Shown here piece after piece: positions 19,516 through 37,361 of a stretch of DNA of 64,000 bases. Origin of the DNA: Ensifer sp. LC163 (GTDB lineage: Bacteria; Pseudomonadota; Alphaproteobacteria; Rhizobiales; Rhizobiaceae); contig NZ_MBSS01000008.1 in the NCBI RefSeq assembly GCF_001695855.1, positions 62,001-126,000 of the forward strand, given 5' to 3'. The position numbers were made by a program, and so were the translations under genes. Each line of letters begins with the position of its first letter. The stretch's first letter is position 1. The notes beneath the pieces were generated by a model that was not told where the DNA came from, ran no database searches, and was given only the letters and a program-made list of their open reading frames with translations.

Positions 19516-20493
19516 TTACCTCCACCGCTTCTCGTAGGCGCCTGATGTCGTCTTCTGTCCCTCGCTAAGCCGCCGGAGACGCGACAGCAAGGCGGGCCTC
19601 TCGTCCGCATTGGCAGCGACGGCGCGACGCATGATGGACACGACCTCGGCGACATAGGCCTTGCCGCGCTGGCGTCCCTCGATCTTCAACGCGCCGACAC
19701 CCGCATCGCGCAGGGCATCGATGTGATCCATGACGTCGAGCGAAACCGGATCCTCGAAGGCGTACCCACGCTCCTCGGCAATGTCGAAGCGTCCCTTGCA
19801 GAGCGTGGGATAACCGGCGGCTTCGCCGGCCGGAAAGCGGTTGATGGTGTAGTCGCCCAGTTCCGATACCAGTTCGCTGCCATCCTCGCGGTAACGCACG
19901 TGACTTGCCGGCGAACAGACGCCGTTCATGTTGGGAGACTTGCCGGTGGCGTAGGACGAGAGCGAGCAGCGCCCCTCGGCCATCACGCAGAGCCCGCCGA
20001 AAACGAAGACCTCGATCTCGCAGCTGATCTGGCGCGCAAGGCGGGCGATATCGGGAATCGTGAGAATGCGCGGAAGCACGACGCGCTTCGCACCGAAGGT
20101 TTCGACAAGGAATTTGACGGCGTCGGCGTTGGAGGCGGAGGCCTGGACCGAGACGTGCAGCCGTTGCTCCGGATGGCGCTCGGCCGTGTAGGCCATCAAT
20201 CCGAAGTCGGCGAGGATAAGGGCGTCGGCCCCAAGGCGCACGGCATCGTCGACCGCGTCATGCCAGAGCTTTTCTTGACCCGCCCGCATGAAGGTGTTGA
20301 TGGCGACGAAGGTCATCACCTTGTGCCGGCGGGCGTAGGCAATCGCGGTCTTCAGTTCGTCGCGTGAGAAGTTGAGGCCGGGAAAGTTGCGTGCATTGGT
20401 CTCGTCGCGAAAGCCGCAATAGACGGCATCGGCGCCGGCATCCACGGCCTCGCGAAAGGCGGCGGGCGTGCCCGCCGGACAGATCAGTTCCAT
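19516..20493 (-). CDS. ubiU: O2-independent ubiquinone hydroxylation protein UbiU
   Basis: This 325-residue member of the U32 peptidase family begins MELICPAGTPAAFREAVDAG. The four probable cluster cysteines appear in FGGLCVMAEGRC, MNGVCSPASH and YPTLCKGRFD. It partners with UbiV, encoded immediately downstream, in the oxygen-free hydroxylation of ubiquinone precursors. Its start overlaps the end of ubiT by ten bases, so the three genes are translated from one message. The whole set lies beside the nitrite/NO respiration genes, which need ubiquinone without oxygen. Confidence 0.92.
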   Translation of the reverse strand: MELICPAGTPAAFREAVDAGADAVYCGFRDETNARNFPGLNFSRDELKTAIAYARRHKVMTFVAINTFMRAGQEKLWHDAVDDAVRLGADALILADFGLMAYTAERHPEQRLHVSVQASASNADAVKFLVETFGAKRVVLPRILTIPDIARLARQISCEIEVFVFGGLCVMAEGRCSLSSYATGKSPNMNGVCSPASHVRYREDGSELVSELGDYTINRFPAGEAAGYPTLCKGRFDIAEERGYAFEDPVSLDVMDHIDALRDAGVGALKIEGRQRGKAYVAEVVSIMRRAVAANADERPALLSRLRRLSEGQKTTSGAYEKRWR

Positions 20494-20990
20494 GTGGCTG
20501 CCTCCCCGGACAATGCGCGTGTCCTGATTTCAGCCGCTGCGCGCCGGACCAAGGGTGCGAACGGCCCGCTCATGCGGGCGATATCTGCCGGCAGGTCGAT
20601 GTCGCAGTCGTCGAGCGCGTTGCGCAGCGCCAACATGGCTTCCATGTCGCCCGTGATCGTCAGGCTTCTGGAGAAGAACACGGCATCGCCGTCGATCTGG
20701 CCTTCGAGCAGCGCCAGAAGCAACACGAACCTGCCGCCCATGCAGGCGTGAGCGACCGGCAGATGCGGCTTGCGGTGAACGGAGATGCGGCGGGCCGCCG
20801 GCTCTACCAGAAAGCCCACGGGAAGATCCGTGGGGACAAAGGCGTACCGCTTGTCGGCGTGCTCCCCGAGCCGGTCGAAAAGATCCGGATGCTGGGCAAC
20901 GACCTGGGCAAAGACGAGCCGCGTGGCGTGTTCGATGACGGAGAGCGGGGCGATCCGGAAAGGCACGGTCATCGCAAAGGGTAGGGTCAT
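20484..20990 (-). CDS. ubiT: UbiT, SCP2-domain lipid-binding protein
   Basis: This is a 168-residue protein with the SCP2 sterol-carrier fold, suggested by RISVHRKPHLPVAHACMGGRFVL (quoted in part) and LLEGQIDGDAVFFSRSLTITGD. In E. coli UbiT is the anaerobic counterpart of UbiJ and is thought to bind ubiquinone intermediates. The ATG at 20990 is chosen over one six codons later, and neither has a strong ribosome site. It leads the ubiT-ubiU-ubiV operon and is divergent from ubiD. An FNR-like box lies between them. Confidence 0.85.
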   Translation of the reverse strand: MTLPFAMTVPFRIAPLSVIEHATRLVFAQVVAQHPDLFDRLGEHADKRYAFVPTDLPVGFLVEPAARRISVHRKPHLPVAHACMGGRFVLLLALLEGQIDGDAVFFSRSLTITGDMEAMLALRNALDDCDIDLPADIARMSGPFAPLVRRAAAEIRTRALSGEAATWN

Positions 20991-21056
20991 GGGCTGCCTG
21001 CATAAAGATGGAGCAAAGAATGGTTTGCATGCTAGTCGCCGCACCGCGCCGGCTGT

Positions 21057-21070
21057 TTGTCCCACGTCAA
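21057..21070. promoter_or_regulatory. FNR/NnrR-type box between ubiT and ubiD
   Basis: The bases read TTGTC-CCAC-GTCAA, a near-symmetric FNR/CRP-family site with one mismatch between half-sites. It lies 67 bases before the ubiT ATG and 35 bases before the ubiD ATG. Confidence 0.55.
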
Positions 21071-21104
21071 AGACATCGGGCATTTGCCGAGCCTAAGAGG
21101 CGGC

Positions 21105-22616
21105 ATGAACAAGAACTTCCGTTCCGCCAAGGGTTTTGTCTCGCTTCAGGATTTTGCCGGCGCGCTGGAGCGTGACGGGGAGCTGAAACGCATCTCCCGT
21201 CCCGTCTCGCTGGTGCATGAGGTGACCGAAATCCACCGACGCGTTCTGGCGGATGAGGGACCGGCCTTGCTGTTCGAGCGGCCGGTCGATGCTTCCGGGC
21301 GCGTCCACGACATCCCTCTGCTTGCCAATCTCTTTGGCACCGAGCGCCGGATCGAACGTGGTTTCGGTTTACGCACCGGCGGACTTGTCGAGCTTGCACG
21401 CGAGCTGGCCGAGCTGCGGGATCCGCGCGCGCCCGGGTCGCTGCGCGATGCCTGGGACCGGCTGCCGCTGTTGCGGTCTGCACTCTTCATGCGGCCGAAA
21501 CATGTGGCGTCCGCACCTTGCCAGGACATCGTCTGGCGTGGCGCGGACCTCGACCTTGGCCGCTTGCCGATCCAATGGTGCTGGCCGGGCGAACCGGCAC
21601 CGCTGATCACCTGGCCGCTGGTGATCACGCGCGCACCGGACGATCCGCTCGATGTCAATGTCGGCATCTATCGCATGCAGGTGCTGGGCCGGGACCGGGT
21701 GATCCTACGTTGGCTTGCCCATCGCGGTGGCGCCCGACACCATCGCCTGTGGCAGCGCCAGGGGCGCGACATGCCGGTTGCCGTGGCAATCGGCGCCGAT
21801 CCCGCCACGATCCTTGCCTCCGTCATGCCGCTGCCGGAGGGGCTGAGCGAACTCAACTTCGCCGGACTGTTGCGGCGCAGCCGAACGCAGCTCACGGCGG
21901 CTACGTCGGTGCCGCTGGCCGTTCCGGCAAATGCCGAGATCGTCCTCGAAGGAACGGTATCGGCGACTGAGACGGCCGAGGAAGGGCCCTATGGCGACCA
22001 CACCGGCTACTACAATTCTGTCGAACCGTTTCCGGTCATGACACTTTCCGCCATCACCACGCGCCGTGCCCCCTATTATCTCTCCACCTATACCGGCCGG
22101 CCGCCGGACGAGCCTTCGCGCCTGGGCGAGGCGATGAACATGCTGTTCGTTCCGCTGGCCAAGAAGCAGTTCCCGGAGATCACCGATCTCTGGTTGCCGC
22201 CGGAGGCCTGTTCCTATCGCGCCATGGTCGTCTCGATCGACAAGCGTTACCCCGGACAGGCGAAACGACTGATGATGGGTCTATGGTCGATGCTGCCGCA
22301 GTTCAGCTACACCAAGCTGATCATCGCGGTCGACCCGGATATCAATGTCCGCCATTGGCCCGATGTCATGTGGGCGCTGGCCACCCGCTTCGATGCGAGC
22401 CGCGATGTCACCGTGATTGCCGACACGCCGATCGACTATCTCGATTTCGCCTCGCCGCGCTCCGGCCTCGGCGGCAAGCTCGGGCTGGATGCAACGACGA
22501 AGATCGGCTCGGAGACGGATCGGGAATGGGGGCGGGTGCTCGACATGACGCCGGATGTCGTCGAGCAGGTTGATACCATCTGGGCCGATCTTGGCCTTGG
22601 AGGCGGAGCGCGATGA
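21105..22616 (+). CDS. ubiD: UbiD-family decarboxylase (ubiquinone biosynthesis)
   Basis: This is a 503-residue UbiD-type enzyme, which uses prenylated FMN to decarboxylate 3-polyprenyl-4-hydroxybenzoate. The catalytic neighbourhood is recognisable as TAEEGPYGDHTGYY near residue 300, with conserved Arg and Glu in the family order. The ATG at 21105 follows AGAGGCGGC, and an earlier in-frame ATG at 21057 would lie on the FNR-like box. ubiX, which makes the cofactor, starts within the last four bases of this gene. Location opposite ubiTUV suggests a dedicated anaerobic ubiquinone module. A specialised aromatic decarboxylase role cannot be excluded. Confidence 0.88.
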   Translation: MNKNFRSAKGFVSLQDFAGALERDGELKRISRPVSLVHEVTEIHRRVLADEGPALLFERPVDASGRVHDIPLLANLFGTERRIERGFGLRTGGLVELARELAELRDPRAPGSLRDAWDRLPLLRSALFMRPKHVASAPCQDIVWRGADLDLGRLPIQWCWPGEPAPLITWPLVITRAPDDPLDVNVGIYRMQVLGRDRVILRWLAHRGGARHHRLWQRQGRDMPVAVAIGADPATILASVMPLPEGLSELNFAGLLRRSRTQLTAATSVPLAVPANAEIVLEGTVSATETAEEGPYGDHTGYYNSVEPFPVMTLSAITTRRAPYYLSTYTGRPPDEPSRLGEAMNMLFVPLAKKQFPEITDLWLPPEACSYRAMVVSIDKRYPGQAKRLMMGLWSMLPQFSYTKLIIAVDPDINVRHWPDVMWALATRFDASRDVTVIADTPIDYLDFASPRSGLGGKLGLDATTKIGSETDREWGRVLDMTPDVVEQVDTIWADLGLGGGAR

Positions 22617-23197
22617 GCAGGTTGAAAATTGTCGTCGGTGTGACCGGCGCATCCGGTGCCGCCATTCCTTTGCGCATCGCCGAACGGCTAGCTGAGATCG
22701 ACGAGGTCGAGATGCATCTGGTGATGTCGCCGGCAGCGCATCGCACGCTTGCCCATGAGGTCGGAGCGCACGCGCTGCTGCGGCTTCTGGAAAAGGTTGA
22801 TCGGACCTACGACAATAGCGATATCGGCGCGGCGATCGCCAGCGGTTCGTTTCCGACGGCCGGGATGATCGTGTCGCCCTGTTCCATGCGCACGCTTGCC
22901 GCGATCGCCAACGGGCTGGCCGACAATCTGCTTGTCCGGGCTGCGGACGTACACCTGAAAGAGCGTCGCCGTCTCGTCCTGATGACGCGCGAGACGCCGC
23001 TTCATCTGGGGCACCTGCGCAATATGTGCGCCGCCACGGAAATGGGCGCCATCATCATGCCGCCGGTGCCGGCCTTTTACCACCGGCCGGCAAGCGTCGA
23101 GGCGATCATCGACCATCTCGCCGCAAGGGCAATCGATCTGCTGGCGCTGCCGATCGCGCCGCTTGCAAGGGCCTGGCAGGGGGAGAAGATCAGTTGA
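22613..23197 (+). CDS. ubiX: UbiX flavin prenyltransferase
   Basis: This 194-residue protein opens with the UbiX flavin motif KIVVGVTGASGAAIPLR and contains IVSPCSMRTLAAIANGLADN and the late EMGAIIMPPVPAFY. UbiX transfers dimethylallyl phosphate to FMN to give prenyl-FMN, the cofactor of UbiD encoded directly upstream. The start overlaps the ubiD stop (ATGA), indicating translational coupling. Its 3' end overlaps the convergent nnrU gene by eight bases, which is unusually tight. Confidence 0.93.
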   Translation: MSRLKIVVGVTGASGAAIPLRIAERLAEIDEVEMHLVMSPAAHRTLAHEVGAHALLRLLEKVDRTYDNSDIGAAIASGSFPTAGMIVSPCSMRTLAAIANGLADNLLVRAADVHLKERRRLVLMTRETPLHLGHLRNMCAATEMGAIIMPPVPAFYHRPASVEAIIDHLAARAIDLLALPIAPLARAWQGEKIS

Positions 23198-23882
23198 ACG
23201 GAAGGGCTTGCAGCAGCGGATCGGCATCGAACATCGCATAGTGGCCGCCTGCAAGCAGCCAGAGGGTGATTGCAGCGGTCGCGAAGGCCGACAGGATCAT
23301 CACCGGATCCGCGCGAAACGGCGTCCGGCCCTTGAGGATCGCGACAAAGGGCCAGATGGAAGTGCGGCTGCTTGTGACGGACCAGCGTTCATTCAGGCGT
23401 CGCCGCGCTCGCTTCTCCACCATGAAGAACCCGCCCAGGGCGAAGAGCGCGAAACCACCGAAGAGCACCAGCGATCGTAGGTCGCCATTGGGCACGACAT
23501 GAGCGATCGCCCACAACAGGAAACCCCACAGGACCGGATGACGTGTGATGGCGACGATTGCGCCTGTCTGATCGCGATTTTCGAAGATCGAGATCGACAG
23601 TGGGTTTTCGCTGAAGAGGCCCGCGAGCACGAAGAAAATGCCGAGCGGAGCCAGAATGAACGTTACCCAGGCCTGCCACGGCGCCGGATCCCAGATCGGC
23701 ACGAAATCGAGCTGAAGCGCCGCATGAAAGACGAAACCCAGCGCAACCAGCGACAGCAGCGAGTAGGCAGCGAAATAGGTTCGGCGACCGAGCCGGTCGA
23801 TCAGGCCCTGGCGCAGTGACGGCCAGGCCGGCACGAGATGGAGCAGCAGGAAGGCGGCAAAGGCGAGGAGGAAATAGGTCAT
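23190..23882 (-). CDS. nnrU: NnrU family membrane protein
   Basis: This is a 230-residue protein with about six membrane helices. Conserved NnrU landmarks are RHPVLWGFLLWAIAHVVPNGD near residue 117 and FFMVEKRARRRL. NnrU belongs to the NnrU/isoprenylcysteine-methyltransferase-like membrane family and was named for its need in nitrite/NO metabolism in Rhodobacter. Its biochemical activity is unknown. An alternative GTG start exists at 23900. It follows the hemerythrin gene by ten bases, so both are one operon behind the box at 24381. Confidence 0.85.
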   Translation of the reverse strand: MTYFLLAFAAFLLLHLVPAWPSLRQGLIDRLGRRTYFAAYSLLSLVALGFVFHAALQLDFVPIWDPAPWQAWVTFILAPLGIFFVLAGLFSENPLSISIFENRDQTGAIVAITRHPVLWGFLLWAIAHVVPNGDLRSLVLFGGFALFALGGFFMVEKRARRRLNERWSVTSSRTSIWPFVAILKGRTPFRADPVMILSAFATAAITLWLLAGGHYAMFDADPLLQALPFN

Positions 23883-23892
23883 GTCGAGGGTC

Positions 23893-24321
23893 TCATGCAC
23901 AGGCTGCGAGCAGCAGGCGCTCCGTCGCCACGTGGCGGCGGACGGTTTCGAAGAAGGCCCGCAACATATAGCCGATCGCGTCCCAGCCTAGCGACGCCCG
24001 GTCATCCAACACAGCCTGCAGCACGCGCCCCAGCTCGGCGGCCGCCTGGTCATCGTGGTCGTGCTCGGCGCGTAGTCGTTCGATCAACGCGTCGCGATCT
24101 TTGGCTGTCCTTTGGTCTTCAACGGCTGGAAACAGGATTGACTCCTCGAGCGCATGGACCTGTTTGAGCCTTTCGGGCAGTTCCGCCAGAATCATGCGGC
24201 AGCTCGCACCGTCAATGCGATGTGGAATCGAGTCGGCGAGGGCTTCGAGGCGATCGCACAGGTCGAGAAGTCCGCGGTAGGCCTCGCCCAGTTCCTGGTG
24301 TCCGGTAAAGCGCTGTCGCAT
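23893..24321 (-). CDS. Hemerythrin HHE-domain protein
   Basis: This 142-residue helical protein shows hemerythrin-type ligands: HQELGEAYR near the N-terminus, HALEESILFPAVED in the centre, and AEHDHDDQAA with a closing His at RRHVATERLL. Such domains hold a di-iron centre that can bind O2 or NO, or serve in iron release and repair of nitrosylated iron (compare YtfE/DnrN). The ATG at 24321 follows GGAGCAGG. It precedes nnrU in one operon and has an FNR/NnrR-type box 60 bases upstream, so an NO-related role is likely. Confidence 0.8.
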   Translation of the reverse strand: MRQRFTGHQELGEAYRGLLDLCDRLEALADSIPHRIDGASCRMILAELPERLKQVHALEESILFPAVEDQRTAKDRDALIERLRAEHDHDDQAAAELGRVLQAVLDDRASLGWDAIGYMLRAFFETVRRHVATERLLLAACA

Positions 24322-24380
24322 CGAACCTGCTCCATTGGGATGTTTCGCGTCTGAACTACACCCGATGGCGACCGTCCTCT

Positions 24381-24394
24381 TTGACATTTCGCAA
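24381..24394. promoter_or_regulatory. FNR/NnrR-type box upstream of hemerythrin-nnrU
   Basis: The site reads TTGAC-ATTT-CGCAA. It lies 60 bases before the hemerythrin start and fits the box set seen at seven other places between 21 and 38 kb. Confidence 0.65.
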
Positions 24395-24500
24395 AGTCCC
24401 CGGCGCGACCGTTCGCCGCTCGCGGTGCTACGTCGTGAACGCATAAGGGGTCGCCGGATTCAACTTGATGCGGTCCAAAGCTCTTTGAAAGGAGCTTTGG

Positions 24501-25906: not shown

Positions 25907-25920
25907 TTGCGCAATCGCAA
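25907..25920. promoter_or_regulatory. Perfect NnrR/FNR-type box, norE and divergent small gene
   Basis: TTGCG-CAAT-CGCAA is fully symmetric, and the flanking T and A extend the palindrome. It lies 64 bases before norE and 60 bases before the divergent 51-codon gene, the usual distance for activation by FNR-family proteins. Confidence 0.8.
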
Positions 25921-26846: not shown

Positions 26847-26860
26847 TTGCCAAAACGCAA
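26847..26860. promoter_or_regulatory. NnrR/FNR-type box upstream of norC
   Basis: TTGCC-AAAA-CGCAA has one mismatch from full symmetry. It lies 147 bases before the norC ATG, which implies a leader of about 100 bases on the norCBQD message. Confidence 0.7.
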
Positions 26861-31771: not shown

Positions 31772-33124
31772 TCAGGCCGCCTTGCTGTGCGTGCGCTGCG
31801 CGTCGTCGATATAGGCATCGAAAGCGGCTGCCACGGCGCGGATCACGAAGCGATGATCCTGCCTTACCGTTATGACGCCGTCGGCGATATCCAGCACATG
31901 GTCGTCGGCCATCCTTGCCAGACGCTCATTGCCGCCGAGGAGGAAATCCGGATCCCGTCCGTGTGCAGTGGCGATTGCCTTGATGTCGGCCGTGAAATCG
32001 CACATCAGCCTTTCGATGATCGCGGCACGCAGGCGATCCTCGTCGGTCAAACGATAGCCCTTCGTCGTTGCCAGTCGGCCGGACGCGATATGGCTTGCAT
32101 AAAGCCCGGGAGGCACTTCGTTCTGCACATAGCCGTCTTGTGAGCGGCCGATCGCCGAGGCGCCGAAACCGATCAGCGTTTCGCAATTGTCCGTCGTATA
32201 GCCCTGAAAATTTCGCCGAAGCATGCCGGAGGTCTGCGCGAGCACGAGATCGTCGTCGGGCAGGGCGAAGTGGTCGAGCCCGATCTGGCGGTAACCCGCT
32301 TCGCAAAGCGCTTCGCTGATGGCGAGCGCCTGGTCGGTGCGGGCGGAAGCGCCGGGCAGCACGTTCTCGTCAATCATGCGCTGGTGTTTCTTGAACGACG
32401 GCACGTGCGCGTAACCGAAGACGGCAAAGCGCTCCGGCCGCATCGCCGTGGCGGCCTTGACCGTCTCGACGCAGGAGCGAACCGTCTGGTGCGGCAATCC
32501 ATAGATCAGATCGAAGTTGATGCTGCCGACACCGGCCTTGCGAAGATGCGCCACCGCATCCGCAGTCTGCCGTTCGCTCTGAATGCGGTTGACGGCCTTC
32601 TGGACGACCGGGTCGAAGCTCTGAACGCCGAGGCTGGCCCGTCTCACCCCACCTGCGCCGAGCGCTTGCGCCATGGCGGCGGTCAAGCGCCGAGGATCGA
32701 TTTCGACAGCTACACCTGTCTTCGGACCGAACCGATAGCGCTCGCGCAGGAGCGCCATCAACGCCAGGAATTCTTCCGGCTCGATGATCGTCGGCGTCCC
32801 GCCGCCGAAATGGACCTCGCCGACCGGCAGTGGCGCGGACACATGATCGGCCACCATGTTGATCTCCTGCCTGAGCACGTTGAGGTAATCGAGGATCGGT
32901 TCGTTCTGTCGGGTGATCGTGGTGTGACATCCGCAATACCAGCACATCGAGCGGCAGAAGGGGATGTGCAGGTAGAGTGAGACATCCCAGTCCGTTGGGA
33001 TCGTGCCCAGCCAGTCGGCGTACGTCTCGCGATCGATGCCGGCGCAAAAGCGTGGCGCGGTCGGGTAGCTGGTGTAACGCGGCAAGCGCATCTCGGCATA
33101 GTTCATAAGGGCGGTGGACTGCAT
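31772..33124 (-). CDS. hemN: Oxygen-independent coproporphyrinogen III oxidase HemN
   Basis: This 450-residue radical SAM enzyme carries the [4Fe-4S] motif in FCRSMCWYCGCH (CxxxCxxC) near residue 63 and VHFGGGTPTIIEPEE, the usual SAM-binding glycine motif. It converts coproporphyrinogen III to protoporphyrinogen IX without oxygen, so heme can be made for NorCB and other cytochromes during anoxia. It stands between norD (convergent) and the DUF2249 gene (divergent). FNR-type boxes occupy the divergent promoter. Confidence 0.95.
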   Translation of the reverse strand: MQSTALMNYAEMRLPRYTSYPTAPRFCAGIDRETYADWLGTIPTDWDVSLYLHIPFCRSMCWYCGCHTTITRQNEPILDYLNVLRQEINMVADHVSAPLPVGEVHFGGGTPTIIEPEEFLALMALLRERYRFGPKTGVAVEIDPRRLTAAMAQALGAGGVRRASLGVQSFDPVVQKAVNRIQSERQTADAVAHLRKAGVGSINFDLIYGLPHQTVRSCVETVKAATAMRPERFAVFGYAHVPSFKKHQRMIDENVLPGASARTDQALAISEALCEAGYRQIGLDHFALPDDDLVLAQTSGMLRRNFQGYTTDNCETLIGFGASAIGRSQDGYVQNEVPPGLYASHIASGRLATTKGYRLTDEDRLRAAIIERLMCDFTADIKAIATAHGRDPDFLLGGNERLARMADDHVLDIADGVITVRQDHRFVIRAVAAAFDAYIDDAQRTHSKAA

Positions 33125-33189: not shown

Positions 33190-33251
33190 TTGCGAAAAGC
33201 CAAGCAGGCGAGCAACAAGGGGCAAAGCGGGATTTGTTTGCGCTTCGACAA
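33190..33251. promoter_or_regulatory. Two FNR/NnrR-like boxes between hemN and DUF2249 gene
   Basis: TTGCG-CTTC-GACAA lies at 33238-33251, about 107 bases before the DUF2249 ATG, and is the better match. TTGCG-AAAA-GCCAA at 33190-33203 is weaker in its right half and lies about 72 bases before hemN. Both could serve anaerobic or NO-dependent activation of the divergent genes. Confidence 0.55.
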
Positions 33252-33351: not shown

Positions 33352-33642
33352 ATGACAACTGCAGAAACAGAAACGAAGCCTTTCATCGACGTGCGCACCA
33401 TCCCGCCGGTCGAGCGCCATCCGAAGATTTTCGGAATGCTCAATGCGCTGGCCGAAGGCGGCTCCTTCATCATCGTCAACGACCACGATCCGCGCCCGCT
33501 GCACTACCAGTTGGAAAGCCGTTATCCCGGTGAATTCACTTGGGAGTACCTTGAGCAGGGACCCGCTGTCTGGCGGGTCGAGATTGGCCGGCAACAGGCC
33601 TCCGGCTGCGACTGCTGCTGCGGCAGCAGCAGCGGCCACTGA
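33352..33642 (+). CDS. DUF2249 protein with cysteine-rich tail
   Basis: This 96-residue protein has one DUF2249 domain (FIDVRTIPPVERHPKIFGML, then FIIVNDHDPRPLHYQLE and a YPGEFTWEYLEQGP strand region). It ends in an unusual tail, SGCDCCCGSSSGH, with four cysteines in five positions. DUF2249 proteins are common next to denitrification genes and are thought, without proof, to bind a metal or heme. The ATG at 33352 was chosen because the frame upstream lies over the FNR-like box region. It leads the module continued at 33779. Confidence 0.85.
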   Translation: MTTAETETKPFIDVRTIPPVERHPKIFGMLNALAEGGSFIIVNDHDPRPLHYQLESRYPGEFTWEYLEQGPAVWRVEIGRQQASGCDCCCGSSSGH

Positions 33643-33659
33643 GAAGAATGCCCCCGGCT

Positions 33660-33759
33660 AGAGCGCTTCCGGTTCAGGCGGAACCGCAGAAGCGCTCTAT
33701 CTCTTTGTTTATACGCATTTCCTGACGGAAAGCCGCTTCACACTTTTCCTGGAAATGCT
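33660..33759. repeat. RIME-like dispersed element, copy 2 (inverted)
   Basis: These 100 bases match the reverse complement of the element at 15859-15961 over most of their length, including an AGAGCG-type left end and GGAAATGCT at the right. The copy separates the DUF2249 gene from the NnrS-like gene. Confidence 0.75.
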
Positions 33760-33778
33760 GTCGTCAGGATGAACCGCG

Positions 33779-35143
33779 ATGTTCGGAGCCACGCTTTCCC
33801 GCTGGACGATGTCCTATTTCGCGGCCGCGCTGATCTTTCTTGCCATCGGCGAGATGATGATGGTCTTCGGCTTCGGGTATCCGGGTTCATCCATCGAAGC
33901 CCCTGAGACGCTGGCGCTCGTTCACACCATTGCGCTTGGCTGGCTCAGCCTGCTGATGGCGGGAGCCCTGTTGCAGTTCGTGCCGGTCCTCGTTGGCCGG
34001 CCACTTTCGCTGTCGCACCTGGCTTTTCCGGCCCTGGTGCTGCTGGTGGTCGGCATAACCAGCCTTGTCCTTGGCTTTATCGGCCTTGCCGGTGCCGACA
34101 ACCTGTCGCCGCTCCTCCTGCCCTTCGGCGCGACCGTGACGATCGCCGGATTCGGTCTGCTCATCACCGTGTTCGCCGCTACCCTATGGCGCGCTCGACC
34201 GTTGCCGCTGCCTGCGCGGTTCGTCGCCGTCGGTCTCGGCACCCTTGTCATGACCATTTCCCTTGGCGGTACCTATGCATTTGTCCTTGCCGGGCTTGCT
34301 GATGCGCCGGGCGCCATCGATCTGACGCTTGAAGGCGTTTCACTTCATGCCGTGCTGGGACTGGGCGGCTGGCTGAGCTTTACGACCATGGGAGTCAGCT
34401 ACCGGCTTTTGACCATGTTCATGCTGTCGCCCGATCGGGAGCGGCTTGGCAGCAGGGTTGTCTGGGTACTCGGCGCCGCTGCTCTCGTCATGGTCGCCTG
34501 CGTCGTGCCGATGATCCTCTCCGGCTTAGCCGGGAAAGCGGCAGTGCTTTTCATCGCCGCGCTGGCCGGTGTGATCGCCATCGGAATTTACATGGCCGAC
34601 ATCGTGCGGATCTACCGTGAACGCAAACGCAAGCACATCGAACTGAACAGCCGCGCCGGCATCGGCGCTTTTTCGGCGCTGACTGTCGCGACCTTATTCT
34701 TCGTGGTTTTGGCTGCGGTCGGCCAGATCGAAAGGAGCATCGGTCCGCTGGTCTATCTCGTCACCTTCGGCTGGCTGACGGGCATGGGACTGGCACAGCT
34801 TTACAAGATCGTTCCCTTCATCACCTGGCTCGAATGTTACGGCCCGCTGCTCGGGCGCATGCCGACGCCGCGGGTTCAGGATCTGGTCGTCGAGGCGCGC
34901 GCCGCTCACTGGTTCCGGCTCTTTTACTTCACCGTGATCGTGGCTTCGATAGCGCTGTCTTTCGACAAGGCACTGCTGTTTCGGGCGAGCAGCCTTGGCC
35001 AGTTGATTGCGGTCAATGCGTTGCTTTGGGAATTCGCGGCAACACGACGGCTCAGCAACGTGCCCGACAATCTTCGGCTTTCTGGCGGCTTCGCCCATCC
35101 ACACCTTATCTTCCCACCGTTCCAGTCACGGAGACAACCATGA
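33779..35143 (+). CDS. NnrS-like/heme-copper-like polytopic membrane protein
   Basis: This 454-residue protein has about twelve hydrophobic helices and no signal peptide. Near residue 45 it shows HTIALGWLSLLMAGALLQF followed by VPVLVGRPL, which parallels HEMLFGFSSAVLAGFLL followed by VPNW and GRPL in the nnrS product of this window. A later LHAVLGLGGWLSFTTMG similarly parallels MHVMTVGVMASMMLA. The conserved His-Gly pattern suggests heme or metal binding in the membrane. It is not a NorB, since the HxxxE-HH active site is absent. It overlaps the next gene by four bases (ATGA). The function is unknown, and a link to NO stress is likely from context. Confidence 0.75.
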   Translation: MFGATLSRWTMSYFAAALIFLAIGEMMMVFGFGYPGSSIEAPETLALVHTIALGWLSLLMAGALLQFVPVLVGRPLSLSHLAFPALVLLVVGITSLVLGFIGLAGADNLSPLLLPFGATVTIAGFGLLITVFAATLWRARPLPLPARFVAVGLGTLVMTISLGGTYAFVLAGLADAPGAIDLTLEGVSLHAVLGLGGWLSFTTMGVSYRLLTMFMLSPDRERLGSRVVWVLGAAALVMVACVVPMILSGLAGKAAVLFIAALAGVIAIGIYMADIVRIYRERKRKHIELNSRAGIGAFSALTVATLFFVVLAAVGQIERSIGPLVYLVTFGWLTGMGLAQLYKIVPFITWLECYGPLLGRMPTPRVQDLVVEARAAHWFRLFYFTVIVASIALSFDKALLFRASSLGQLIAVNALLWEFAATRRLSNVPDNLRLSGGFAHPHLIFPPFQSRRQP

Positions 35144-35676
35144 CAAAAGATCCCTACGAGCTAGACGTCAGGCCACTTCTGCGAGGCGGCAACGATCCGT
35201 TCCAGGCCATCATGAGCGCCGTCGACGGCCTGGCACCCGGGCAACCGCTCAAGCTGATTGCGACGTTCAGGCCGGTGCCCCTCTTCAGCGTCATGGCCGG
35301 CCGCGGTTTTGCCCATCAGGACCAACCGCTCGCCGACGGTGATTGGGAGGTACTGTTCACGCCAGAGGGACAGGTGGACGGAATACGGGTCTCGGCCGGC
35401 GACACAGATCTGGATGCTTGGCCGGACCCTGCCCGCCAACTCGACCTGACGGATCTGGACCCTCCCGAACCGATGGTGCGCATCCTCGCCGTGGTGGAAA
35501 AGATGCAGGCCGGCGAGGTGCTCTTCGCCTTGCTCGCGCGCGAGCCGCTGTTTCTCTATCCCGAGCTTGCCAAGCGCGGCCACAAATGGGCCGGCAATTT
35601 CGACGCGGCCGGCGAGACCTATCGCATCCTGATCCGCGTCGGTGGACGCAAGGGGCAAGCAAATGCAGCCGACTGA
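35140..35676 (+). CDS. Tandem DUF2249 protein
   Basis: This 178-residue protein holds two DUF2249-like units. The first is ELDVRPLLRGGNDPFQAIM to about residue 75, including LKLIATFRPVPLFSVM. The second is PPEPMVRILAVVEKM to the end, with LFALLAREPLFLYPELAKRG and the terminal YRILIRVGG strand. Its ATG overlaps the stop of the NnrS-like gene, and its last bases overlap the MIP18 gene, so the three are translated in concert. The family function is unproven. Frequent linkage to NO genes suggests metal or NO handling. Confidence 0.8.
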   Translation: MTKDPYELDVRPLLRGGNDPFQAIMSAVDGLAPGQPLKLIATFRPVPLFSVMAGRGFAHQDQPLADGDWEVLFTPEGQVDGIRVSAGDTDLDAWPDPARQLDLTDLDPPEPMVRILAVVEKMQAGEVLFALLAREPLFLYPELAKRGHKWAGNFDAAGETYRILIRVGGRKGQANAAD

Positions 35677-35971
35677 AAGTGATGAACTGGTCGAAAGCAT
35701 CCGCGCCGCCCTGCGGATGATCGTCGATCCGGAAATGGGCTCCAACGTCGTCGACCTCGGACTGATCTACGACATTTCCGTCCAGGACGGCGGTCTTGTC
35801 CGGGTGACGATGACGACGACGATAAAGGCCTGCCCGGCGACGGCCTTTCTCAAGGAGGCGGTGCAGAACTGCGTCTGGTACGTGCCGGGCGTCGAATATG
35901 CCGAGGTGCGGCTGACATATGAGCCGCCGTGGACCCCGGAGATGATGCTCGACGCAGCCGTAGCGCGGTAA
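35663..35971 (+). CDS. MIP18/DUF59-family metal-sulfur cluster assembly factor
   Basis: This 102-residue protein has the DUF59 core: LRMIVDPEMGSNVVDLGLIY, VRVTMTTTIKACPATAFL, and the conserved Cys in the KACPA turn. Such SufT/PaaD-like proteins assist delivery or maturation of Fe-S clusters. The gene overlaps the tandem DUF2249 gene by 14 bases and ends this small module. A terminator follows. A role in Fe-S repair during NO stress is a reasonable inference. Confidence 0.88.
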   Translation: MQPTESDELVESIRAALRMIVDPEMGSNVVDLGLIYDISVQDGGLVRVTMTTTIKACPATAFLKEAVQNCVWYVPGVEYAEVRLTYEPPWTPEMMLDAAVAR

Positions 35972-35987
35972 TTGGATAACGCCTTAT

Positions 35988-36015
35988 GAAGGTTGCCGCA
36001 GATGCGGCAACCTTC
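35988..36015. terminator. Terminator between MIP18 gene and nnrS
   Basis: GAAGGTTGCCGC at 35988 pairs perfectly with GCGGCAACCTTC ending at 36015, around an AGAT loop, followed by a T-rich run. It lies between convergent genes. Confidence 0.85.
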
Positions 36016-36051
36016 ATTCTTTCTTGCAGGATGAATTAGCCGGTACGGCCG

Positions 36052-37275
36052 CTAGGCGGCCCCACGTGGCGAGCGCCGATCGCGAACCAGCATCGGACCG
36101 TATTCGATGCAGAACAGCGCAAAGGCAGCGATCCAGAGCGCTCCCGACAGCGCGATCAGATGATGATAGTGAACCGGCAGGATTTCGGCGAAGGGGCGCG
36201 CCAGCGCCGCGCCGATAATGGCGATGTAGGACGCGCAGCTGAGGTTCGATGCGGCCAGCGGCCTGCCAGTGTGCCCTCGGCTTGCGCGCGTCATGACGGC
36301 CAGCATCATCGAGGCCATGACACCCACGGTCATCACATGCATGACGGGATACCCGTCGAGGGCGCCGACGGCACCTACCGCAACCGCGGCGAAGCCGAGC
36401 GGAACGAAGGCATAGGCCGCGTGCAGGATGAATACGATCTTGTCCGGCCAGGTGGTCCAGCCACGCCAGCGGACAAGCCGTGCGGCCTGCAGCAACGAGG
36501 CTGCGGCTGCGATGGCGGCCGTGACGATTTGCTGTGGTGCGAAGGTCCAGCAGGTGAGGGCCGCCACGCCGACGAGAATGCTCGCAGTATCGAAGCGATT
36601 ATAAGGAACCGGAAAGTCGGTCCGGCCGAATTTGTTCAGCCAGTTGCGGGTGAAACTCGGCAGAATTCTGCCGCCGACAATCATGATCAACATGACATAG
36701 GCGCCGATCGCCAGCCGTGCTGCCGCATCGACGTCGAGTTGCCGGACGACGGAGATGTGGAACCACGCATTGGCGGCCGAAAGGAGGACCAATCCGCCGA
36801 CGACCTTCAGATCCTTCCACTTCCGCCCGACGATGACTTCGCGCGCGCAGATCGTGAGCAATGCCGGCATGAACGCCGCTTCGATGATGACCGCCGGTGT
36901 CAGTCCGATCACATCCGTCGCCAGCAGCGCCAGCCGCCCGGCAACCCACAGAGCGAATAGGTAGGCGAGCGGCCTTCCGGAAACAGGCAGTCTTCCGGTC
37001 CAGTTCGGAACCGCAGTCAAAAGGAAGCCTGCGAGCACGGCCGATGAAAAACCGAAGAGCATCTCGTGCGCGTGCCAATGGGCAGGGCCATAATCGCCGG
37101 CGATGTCGATACCCCTGACAAGGGCTGCGATCCATGCGGCCATGGCGAAGATCGCCCAGAGGCTGGCTCCGAGGAAAAATGGCCTGAAGCCATAGGAGAA
37201 GAGAACGGGGCCAGTGGTGGCGAGCCCTCGCGGGATTCCGCCGCGGGGCCGTGGTTTTCTAAGTAGATTAAGCAT
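36052..37275 (-). CDS. nnrS: NnrS family heme-copper membrane protein
   Basis: This is a 407-residue protein with about twelve membrane helices. Family landmarks are LFSYGFRPFFLGASLWA near residue 30, GPAHWHAHEMLFGFSSAVLAG, MLIMIVGGRILPSFTRNWL, and the late VMHVMTVGVMASMMLAVMTRASRGHTG (partly quoted). NnrS is induced by NO, binds heme and copper in Rhodobacter, and eases NO toxicity. The open frame runs far upstream through nirK on the opposite strand, but the ATG at 37275 with AGGA ahead gives the normal start. A perfect NnrR-type box lies 80 bases upstream. Confidence 0.93.
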   Translation of the reverse strand: MLNLLRKPRPRGGIPRGLATTGPVLFSYGFRPFFLGASLWAIFAMAAWIAALVRGIDIAGDYGPAHWHAHEMLFGFSSAVLAGFLLTAVPNWTGRLPVSGRPLAYLFALWVAGRLALLATDVIGLTPAVIIEAAFMPALLTICAREVIVGRKWKDLKVVGGLVLLSAANAWFHISVVRQLDVDAAARLAIGAYVMLIMIVGGRILPSFTRNWLNKFGRTDFPVPYNRFDTASILVGVAALTCWTFAPQQIVTAAIAAAASLLQAARLVRWRGWTTWPDKIVFILHAAYAFVPLGFAAVAVGAVGALDGYPVMHVMTVGVMASMMLAVMTRASRGHTGRPLAASNLSCASYIAIIGAALARPFAEILPVHYHHLIALSGALWIAAFALFCIEYGPMLVRDRRSPRGAA

Positions 37276-37347: not shown

Positions 37348-37361
37348 TTGCGAAAACGCAA
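37348..37361. promoter_or_regulatory. Perfect NnrR/FNR-type box upstream of nnrS
   Basis: TTGCG-AAAA-CGCAA is perfectly symmetric. It lies 80 bases before the nnrS ATG in the nnrS-nirK divergent region. Confidence 0.8.

Follow-up and report, generated by a model that had tools for sequence, protein, structure and literature searches.

The 64,000-nucleotide stretch of Ensifer sp. LC163 analysed here (GCF_001695855.1, contig NZ_MBSS01000008.1, positions 62,001 to 126,000; hereafter, the window) belongs to a 6.5 Mb genome and holds a denitrification island. The island includes a module of four genes that encode, in order, a DUF2249 protein (gene 1), a membrane protein with a predicted haem-copper-oxidase fold (gene 2), a tandem-DUF2249 protein (gene 3) and a MIP18 protein (gene 4). 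A sequence-only reading of this DNA had offered nitric oxide (NO) sensing, iron–sulphur (Fe–S) repair and metal delivery as possible roles of this set; among these, a role in cofactor maturation or repair is ranked first here. We tentatively favour the view that the module is an NnrR/FNR-controlled accessory of denitrification, which would maintain the assembly of metal cofactors in the enzymes of anaerobic respiration under NO.

Linkage, denitrification context and regulation

An alignment of gene 2 was scanned over 84,980 species genomes, and the best 80 of at least 512 confirmed relatives, which lean to Hyphomicrobiales, were read. A tandem-DUF2249 gene lies downstream of gene 2 in all 80 loci and is followed by a MIP18 gene in 76; a DUF2249 gene is located within 1.5 kb upstream of gene 2 in 64. 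The borders between gene 2, the tandem-DUF2249 gene and the MIP18 gene are tight: 78 of 79 and 71 of 75 measured gaps, respectively, are of 50 bp or less. The sequence-only reading had suggested a co-translated unit and proposed a gene-neighbourhood survey; in this survey the genes do co-occur, which supports the unit as a co-inherited, tightly spaced set tied to denitrification genes. Co-inheritance is also supported by partial Mantel correlations given NirK of 0.66–0.72 (p 0.001; 45 loci with all genes, the rows being related). The surroundings of the module are rearranged from genus to genus, suggesting that the cassette moves as a unit. By tblastn, pSymA of Sinorhizobium meliloti 1021 also contains the four genes.

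A sample spread evenly over the order (199 genomes), which is less biased than the 80 loci, contains 12 genomes with gene 2 (10 close and 2 remote). DUF2249 is present in all 12, adjacent to gene 2 in each, versus 15 of the 187 others (Fisher 3e-12), and MIP18 lies within 1.5 kb in 10 of the 12, the two remote genomes being those at which it was not found. NirK is present in 8/10 close genomes versus 32/189 (p 4.7e-5), or in 8/12 versus 32/187 (p 4e-4) when the remote genomes are included. The flanks of the 80 loci contain NirK in 48, cNorB in 37 and NnrS in 45 cases, and at least one denitrification- or NO-type gene, called by thresholds of our own, in 72 once NosR-like, qNOR and Rrf2 genes are added; several of the eight loci with none have short flanks. 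Genes with Fer4_5 and FMN_bind are those which we take to be NosR-like. In Vineibacter the locus is flanked by an Rrf2-type regulator and, on the opposite side, by qNOR; an Rrf2 regulator is also present at one Bradyrhizobium locus. These Rrf2 proteins may be NsrR.

The sequence-only reading had placed the module behind an FNR-like box, and this holds. The box TTGCGCTTCGACAA shares its form with boxes printed for genes that are down in a Bradyrhizobium diazoefficiens nnrR mutant, for example TTGCGCTGCGACAA, in the available part of that paper (PMC6710368). In 62 of 78 related loci a TTG-N8-CAA stands ahead of the module at a distance of no more than 250 bases, versus 2.9 expected from base shuffles (L090 and L097, which have no upstream DNA, were dropped, and many of the loci are close kin and not independent). 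A second box, TTGCGAAAAGCCAA, has a counterpart near -162 in several Ensifer relatives. The strict box form occurs 7 times genome-wide versus 3 for a reversed control. Across the window, FNR-like matches with at most two mismatches are not above chance (8 versus 11.7 expected), and TTG-N8-CAA shows no enrichment (16 versus 11.1 expected). Further TTG-N8-CAA boxes are located between nnrS and nirK (37348-37361) and before the nor genes (25907-25920 and 26847-26860), which is consistent with one regulon.

Predicted structures and conserved residues

Twelve long helices are predicted for the gene 2 protein (mean pLDDT 92.4), as the sequence-only reading had proposed, and the predicted structure has the haem-copper-oxidase fold, with cbb3 oxidase and cNOR as the best matches. 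Pfam contains no family matched by this protein at E ≤ 1, profile comparison gives no direct sequence link to NorB and the PDB holds no sequence match; the relation to NorB thus rests on the fold. A viral-structure search with gene 2 returned nothing below E 0.86. Two His residues, H49 in helix 2 and H190 in helix 6, are invariant in 50/50 close members and are kept out to Thermus; in gene 2 relatives no His is conserved in helix 7 or helix 10. In the catalytic subunits of haem-copper oxidases and NO reductases, two haems and CuB or FeB are bound by six His, which lie in helices 2, 6, 7 and 10. We propose that gene 2 encodes an oxidase-fold membrane protein that would have lost its catalytic metal sites and retained just H49 and H190. 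These two His would hold one haem b in the pore left vacant in true oxidases, a placement derived from the three-fold pseudo-symmetry of the haem-copper-oxidase fold. Counting the tails, the segments putatively inside carry 14.7 Lys and Arg per protein versus 1.5 for those outside, and the conserved, positively charged loops, which would be cytoplasmic if the N-terminus is inside, might dock soluble partners.

The label "NnrS-like" given to gene 2 by the sequence-only reading was overstated, and its identification as NnrS is rejected: there is no match to PF05940, the hhalign probability against NnrS is at most 1.64%, and in NnrS proteins six positions carry His in 45 or more of the 46 sequences (45 loci and the window), versus two in gene 2.

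The gene 1 protein consists of one DUF2249 (Pfam E 4.2e-30) with a Cys-rich C-terminal tail, and Cys is present within the last 15 residues in 48 of 64 relatives, in agreement with the earlier description of a Cys-tailed DUF2249 protein. It is 64% identical to Thermus DrpA over 70 aa; sequence relatives in the PDB are weak matches only (best E 0.074). Gene 1, DrpA-like and with an invariant His, might act as a small mobile partner, with the Cys tail in some lineages. The gene 3 protein has DUF2249 in two stretches according to Pfam, as had been read from the sequence, and its second unit has the TusA fold and also matches TusA (E 1.6e-8). The catalytic motif of TusA is Cys-Pro-x-Pro. In gene 3 the Cys position is occupied by Pro (PPxP), and this first Pro is invariant in 31/31 aligned members and present in Thermus DrpB too. 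Overall identity to DrpB is 35% over 169 columns, with two DUF2249 units in both proteins. Having two DUF2249 units, a TusA fold and no sulphur-carrying Cys, gene 3 could serve as an adaptor.

The gene 4 protein matches FeS_assembly_P/MIP18 (PF01883) at Pfam E 3.9e-18 (65.9 bits versus 23.5), which bears out its earlier assignment to DUF59/MIP18. Cys and Pro are invariant in 23/23 aligned sequences, and Cys-Pro is present in 76/76. The scores of gene 4 for SUF_assoc (89.2 of 143.4 bits), SufT (72.1 of 202.6), PaaD (49.4 of 108.15) and haloarchaeal PaaD (79.9 of 180) fall short of the respective NCBIfam cut-offs. Gene 4 would carry or hand over Fe–S clusters or iron via the conserved Cys.

A proposed role in cofactor maturation or repair, and its rivals

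Related gene sets occur in Thermus and haloarchaea. In Thermus thermophilus JL-18, the run behind nar consists of drpA, drpB, a gene for a 144-aa COX1-like protein, a protoglobin gene, a gene 2 homologue and a MIP18 gene, the last with a 4-base overlap. The 144-aa protein (L152 3290-3724) weakly matches the last part of COX1 only (E 4e-5, below the curated cut-off) and may represent one four-helix unit of the oxidase fold. Among 15 Thermus plasmid records with drpB, which are close kin and mostly of one species, 14 have a full-length gene 2, in 13 of these on the same strand at a distance of 1.3 kb. The exception, NZ_AP024271, keeps drpA and drpB and has no annotated gene 2 or MIP18. In four further records including HB8, only the C-terminal third of gene 2 is matched, beside MIP18, and drpB has no match at E 1e-20. 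The HB8 MIP18 beside this piece (pTT27, L153 3798-4501) is identical over 103 residues to PDB 2cu6 (T. thermophilus TTHB138), a structure labelled rhamnose-reductase-related; a crystal structure is thus given a context, namely a gene that adjoins a gene 2 piece on a plasmid without a drpB match.

According to the available part of the Thermus study, drpAB double mutants have wild-type-like Nar subunits with little activity and hardly grow on nitrate, and its authors infer an additional control by DrpA/DrpB at maturation (Chahlafi et al., 2018; PMC6282519). In Haloferax larsenii, Halarchaeum and Halomicrobium, one chain combines MIP18, NUBPL and DUF2249 beside Fe–S/molybdoenzyme and TorD genes; a candidate gene 2 homologue in H. 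larsenii (L118 8592-9806) is unsupported (hhalign probability 1.4%). In Haloferax mediterranei the nar operon includes a gene for a P-loop NTPase with DUF2249, which is up in denitrification, with a log2FC of 3.60 in the available text (PMC11218638). With the low activity in drpAB mutants, the presence of MIP18 in the operon and its fusion to NUBPL taken together, maturation or repair of cofactors is the interpretation that gives each component of the module a role.

Several observations weigh against this reading. NirK and cNOR have no Fe–S cluster and hence are not evident Fe–S clients. cNorB in the order sample is present in only 5/10 close genomes versus 29/189 (p 0.015), or 5/12 (p 0.035), one weak NorB match (G038) having been dropped. 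DUF2249 is looser than the rest: in 30 loci read from 62 phylum-sample genomes that have it, gene 2 was found within 1.5 kb at 8 and MIP18 within the same distance at 4, a count that leaves out MIP18 lying beyond gene 2. MIP18 was not found in four of the 80 loci (L057, L073, L074 and L079), where a small DUF1858-type open reading frame (ORF) follows instead (L057 12002-12262, tested, with CxxC; the ORFs of the other three match it); DUF1858 is no clean substitute, because it also occurs in three loci with MIP18 (L075, L103 and L112). Thermus MIP18 is closer to the SufT-like protein of the present genome (47%) than to gene 4 (43%), so that orthology of gene 4 and Thermus MIP18 across phyla is not supported. 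An Agrobacterium cluster with nor and nirK lacks gene 2 and MIP18 (within that cluster), and of two Allorhizobium pseudoryzae plasmid islands (L156 and L183) one has the full four-gene set and the other only two DUF2249 genes. These last cases and NZ_AP024271 have in common that exactly gene 2 and MIP18 are missing jointly, which suggests that the two work together. In addition, the main model in the Thermus study, as far as available, is nitrate sensing, and drp mutants alter nar and dnr expression (PMC6282519).

A sensing or signalling role, which we regard as unlikely, would have NO or nitrate perceived by the membrane haem protein together with the DrpA-like protein, and the signal passed on to the transcription machinery by the tandem-DUF2249 protein. 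The protoglobin gene inside the Thermus run and the identity of gene 1 to DrpA fit this role, and it has been proposed for DrpA/DrpB, as drp mutants lose nitrate control of nar in the reported experiments (PMC6282519). However, Pfam detects no DNA-binding, kinase or cyclase domain in the four proteins, the island already has a Crp/Fnr regulator, the MIP18 protein is left unexplained, and the Thermus double mutant makes the enzyme, but with little activity. Slightly less likely again is that the module serves a single respiratory enzyme, NO reductase or nitrite reductase being the likeliest, by helping to assemble it or to insert its metals, with gene 2 as a structural mimic acting in maturation. 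The module adjoins nar in Thermus, qNOR in Vineibacter and NosR-like genes in several loci, so that no single client fits, and cNorB is present in only half of the close order-sample genomes; the frequency of NirK and cNorB in the flanks of the 80 loci and DUF2249 genes near nirK without gene 2 (L127, L130, L131, L133 and L135) are in favour of it. Published support comes from COG4309, which we take to be DUF2249. In the available text, COG4309 probably shares a transcript with nor genes in three rhizobia; in three beta-proteobacteria it is a predicted NsrR-regulon member, often together with norB, and a relevance to NO reductase is suggested (Rodionov et al., 2005; PMC1274295).

The TusA fold and TusA match of gene 3 and the adjoining MIP18 gene might also be taken to indicate a TusA-type sulphur-transfer relay feeding Fe–S assembly, but gene 3 offers no sulphur carrier at this site because the motif Cys is replaced by Pro in every aligned member and in Thermus DrpB, which makes such a relay highly improbable. 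Just as little weight is given to the idea that gene 2 is itself a relative of NO reductase that catalyses the reduction of NO or O2: the fold and its best matches, cbb3 oxidase and cNOR, are what speaks for it, whereas the known active site cannot form in a protein with conserved His in helices 2 and 6 only.

A broader version of cofactor maturation or repair is possible, if somewhat unlikely: the module, the Thermus drp operon and the haloarchaeal fusions might be one ancient portable system, in which an oxidase-fold protein with one haem, placed in the pore vacant in oxidases, DUF2249 adaptors and a MIP18 carrier make or repair Fe–S or other iron cofactors under NO. If so, DrpA and DrpB would have to be reinterpreted as maturation components and not as nitrate sensors, and gene 2 would be, to our knowledge, the first oxidase-fold protein in cofactor biogenesis. 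A maturation module would also explain why Nar is made with little activity in Thermus lacking both Drp proteins. DUF2249 proteins recur in bacterial and haloarchaeal denitrification clusters, with no agreed function in the literature searched; their association with an oxidase-fold membrane protein and an Fe–S-type carrier provides a concrete, testable reading. The earlier statement that no function has been assigned to the set is nearly right, in that neither a description nor a test of the complete four genes was found in the literature searched (most subscription papers lay outside this search), but leads are in print, as far as the available texts go: COG4309 with nor genes (PMC1274295) and DrpA/DrpB (PMC6282519) had been noticed singly, as had haloarchaeal DUF2249 (PMC11218638).

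Locus layout and comparison with known systems

The four ORFs lie where the sequence-only reading had placed them, on the strand opposite to hemN and with the last three overlapping, by ATGA (35140-35143) and by 14 bases (35663-35676). These overlaps, the upstream box and a strong terminator after gene 4 fit one operon (Table 1). A hairpin between genes 1 and 2 is a possible attenuator or processing site and could uncouple expression of gene 1 from the rest; its interpretation as a genome-wide repeat is unsupported in that form, the searched pattern occurring once in the genome. The island contains NnrU, a hemerythrin protein, DUF1326, a cytochrome c, a COX1-family protein, NorQ, a NorD-like VWA protein, hemN, the module, a true NnrS, NirK, an FGE-domain protein and a Crp/Fnr regulator. 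The cytochrome c and the COX1-family protein are assigned by context as NorC and NorB, and the FGE-domain protein is presumably NirV-like. Genes for an SCP2-domain protein, a flavoprotein-family protein, NnrU and the hemerythrin protein (20484-24444) adjoin the nor genes; this stretch resembles anaerobic quinone synthesis genes joined to the denitrification island. In five other loci (L130, L131, L133, L134 and L135; genomes G189, G028, G138, G107 and G166), the families are arranged differently: DUF2249 adjoins NnrS without gene 2, near nirK in four of the five.

Table 1. Coordinates of the module and of adjacent features in the window.
Feature	Position	Strand	Description
hemN	31772-33124	-	divergent, upstream of the module
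Box 2	33190..33203	+	TTGCGAAAAGCCAA; second FNR/NnrR-type box, closer to hemN
Box 1	33238..33251	+	TTGCGCTTCGACAA; NnrR/FNR-type, -114 to -101 of gene 1 ATG
Gene 1 (P0001)	33352..33642	+	96 aa; single DUF2249, DrpA-like, Cys-rich C-terminal tail
Hairpin	33659..33699	+	strong RNA hairpin in the interval separating genes 1 and 2, z -3.5, then T-rich stretch
Gene 2 (P0002)	33779..35143	+	454 aa; 12-helix protein of predicted haem-copper-oxidase fold, two invariant His
Gene 3 (P0003)	35140..35676	+	178 aa; tandem DUF2249, resembles C-terminal part of DrpB
Gene 4 (P0004)	35663..35971	+	102 aa; MIP18/DUF59 protein, conserved Cys-Pro
Intrinsic terminator	35986..36017	+	past gene 4; 14 pairs, z -5.6
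NnrS (true)	36052-37200		next door to the module; Pfam

Gene 4 shares PF01883 and the conserved Cys with the MIP18, SufT, PaaD and CIA2 proteins, while the cut-offs for SUF_assoc, SufT and PaaD are not reached. The second unit of gene 3 has the fold of TusA, with Pro in place of the catalytic Cys. Gene 2 has the 12-helix fold in common with the catalytic subunits of haem-copper oxidases and NO reductases, but of their six-His set only H49 and H190 correspond to conserved positions. NnrS (PF05940), a relative of the same fold, occupies the same denitrification islands. Pei et al., a study cited in PMC11218638, reportedly noted in 2014 oxidase-fold homologues with DUF2249, and the HCOH (haem-copper-oxidase homology) proteins of that work are said to consist of three units with 12 helices in all, to conserve two His and to have a denitrification and DUF2249 neighbourhood; gene 2 fits this three-unit description in its 12 helices, two conserved His and denitrification context.

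A close parallel to the whole is the Thermus DrpA/DrpB operon, in which, as in the module, DUF2249 and tandem-DUF2249 proteins are encoded beside respiratory genes. Gene 1 corresponds to DrpA in its single DUF2249 and in the high identity across the whole domain, whereas DrpB carries an N-terminal DUF1858 that Pfam does not detect in gene 3. The Thermus run adds the COX1-like single unit and the protoglobin, neither of which is in the module, and its neighbour is nar and not nor or nir. The drp operon is under DnrT in the available account (Chahlafi et al., 2018; PMC6282519), whereas the box of the module is of the NnrR type.

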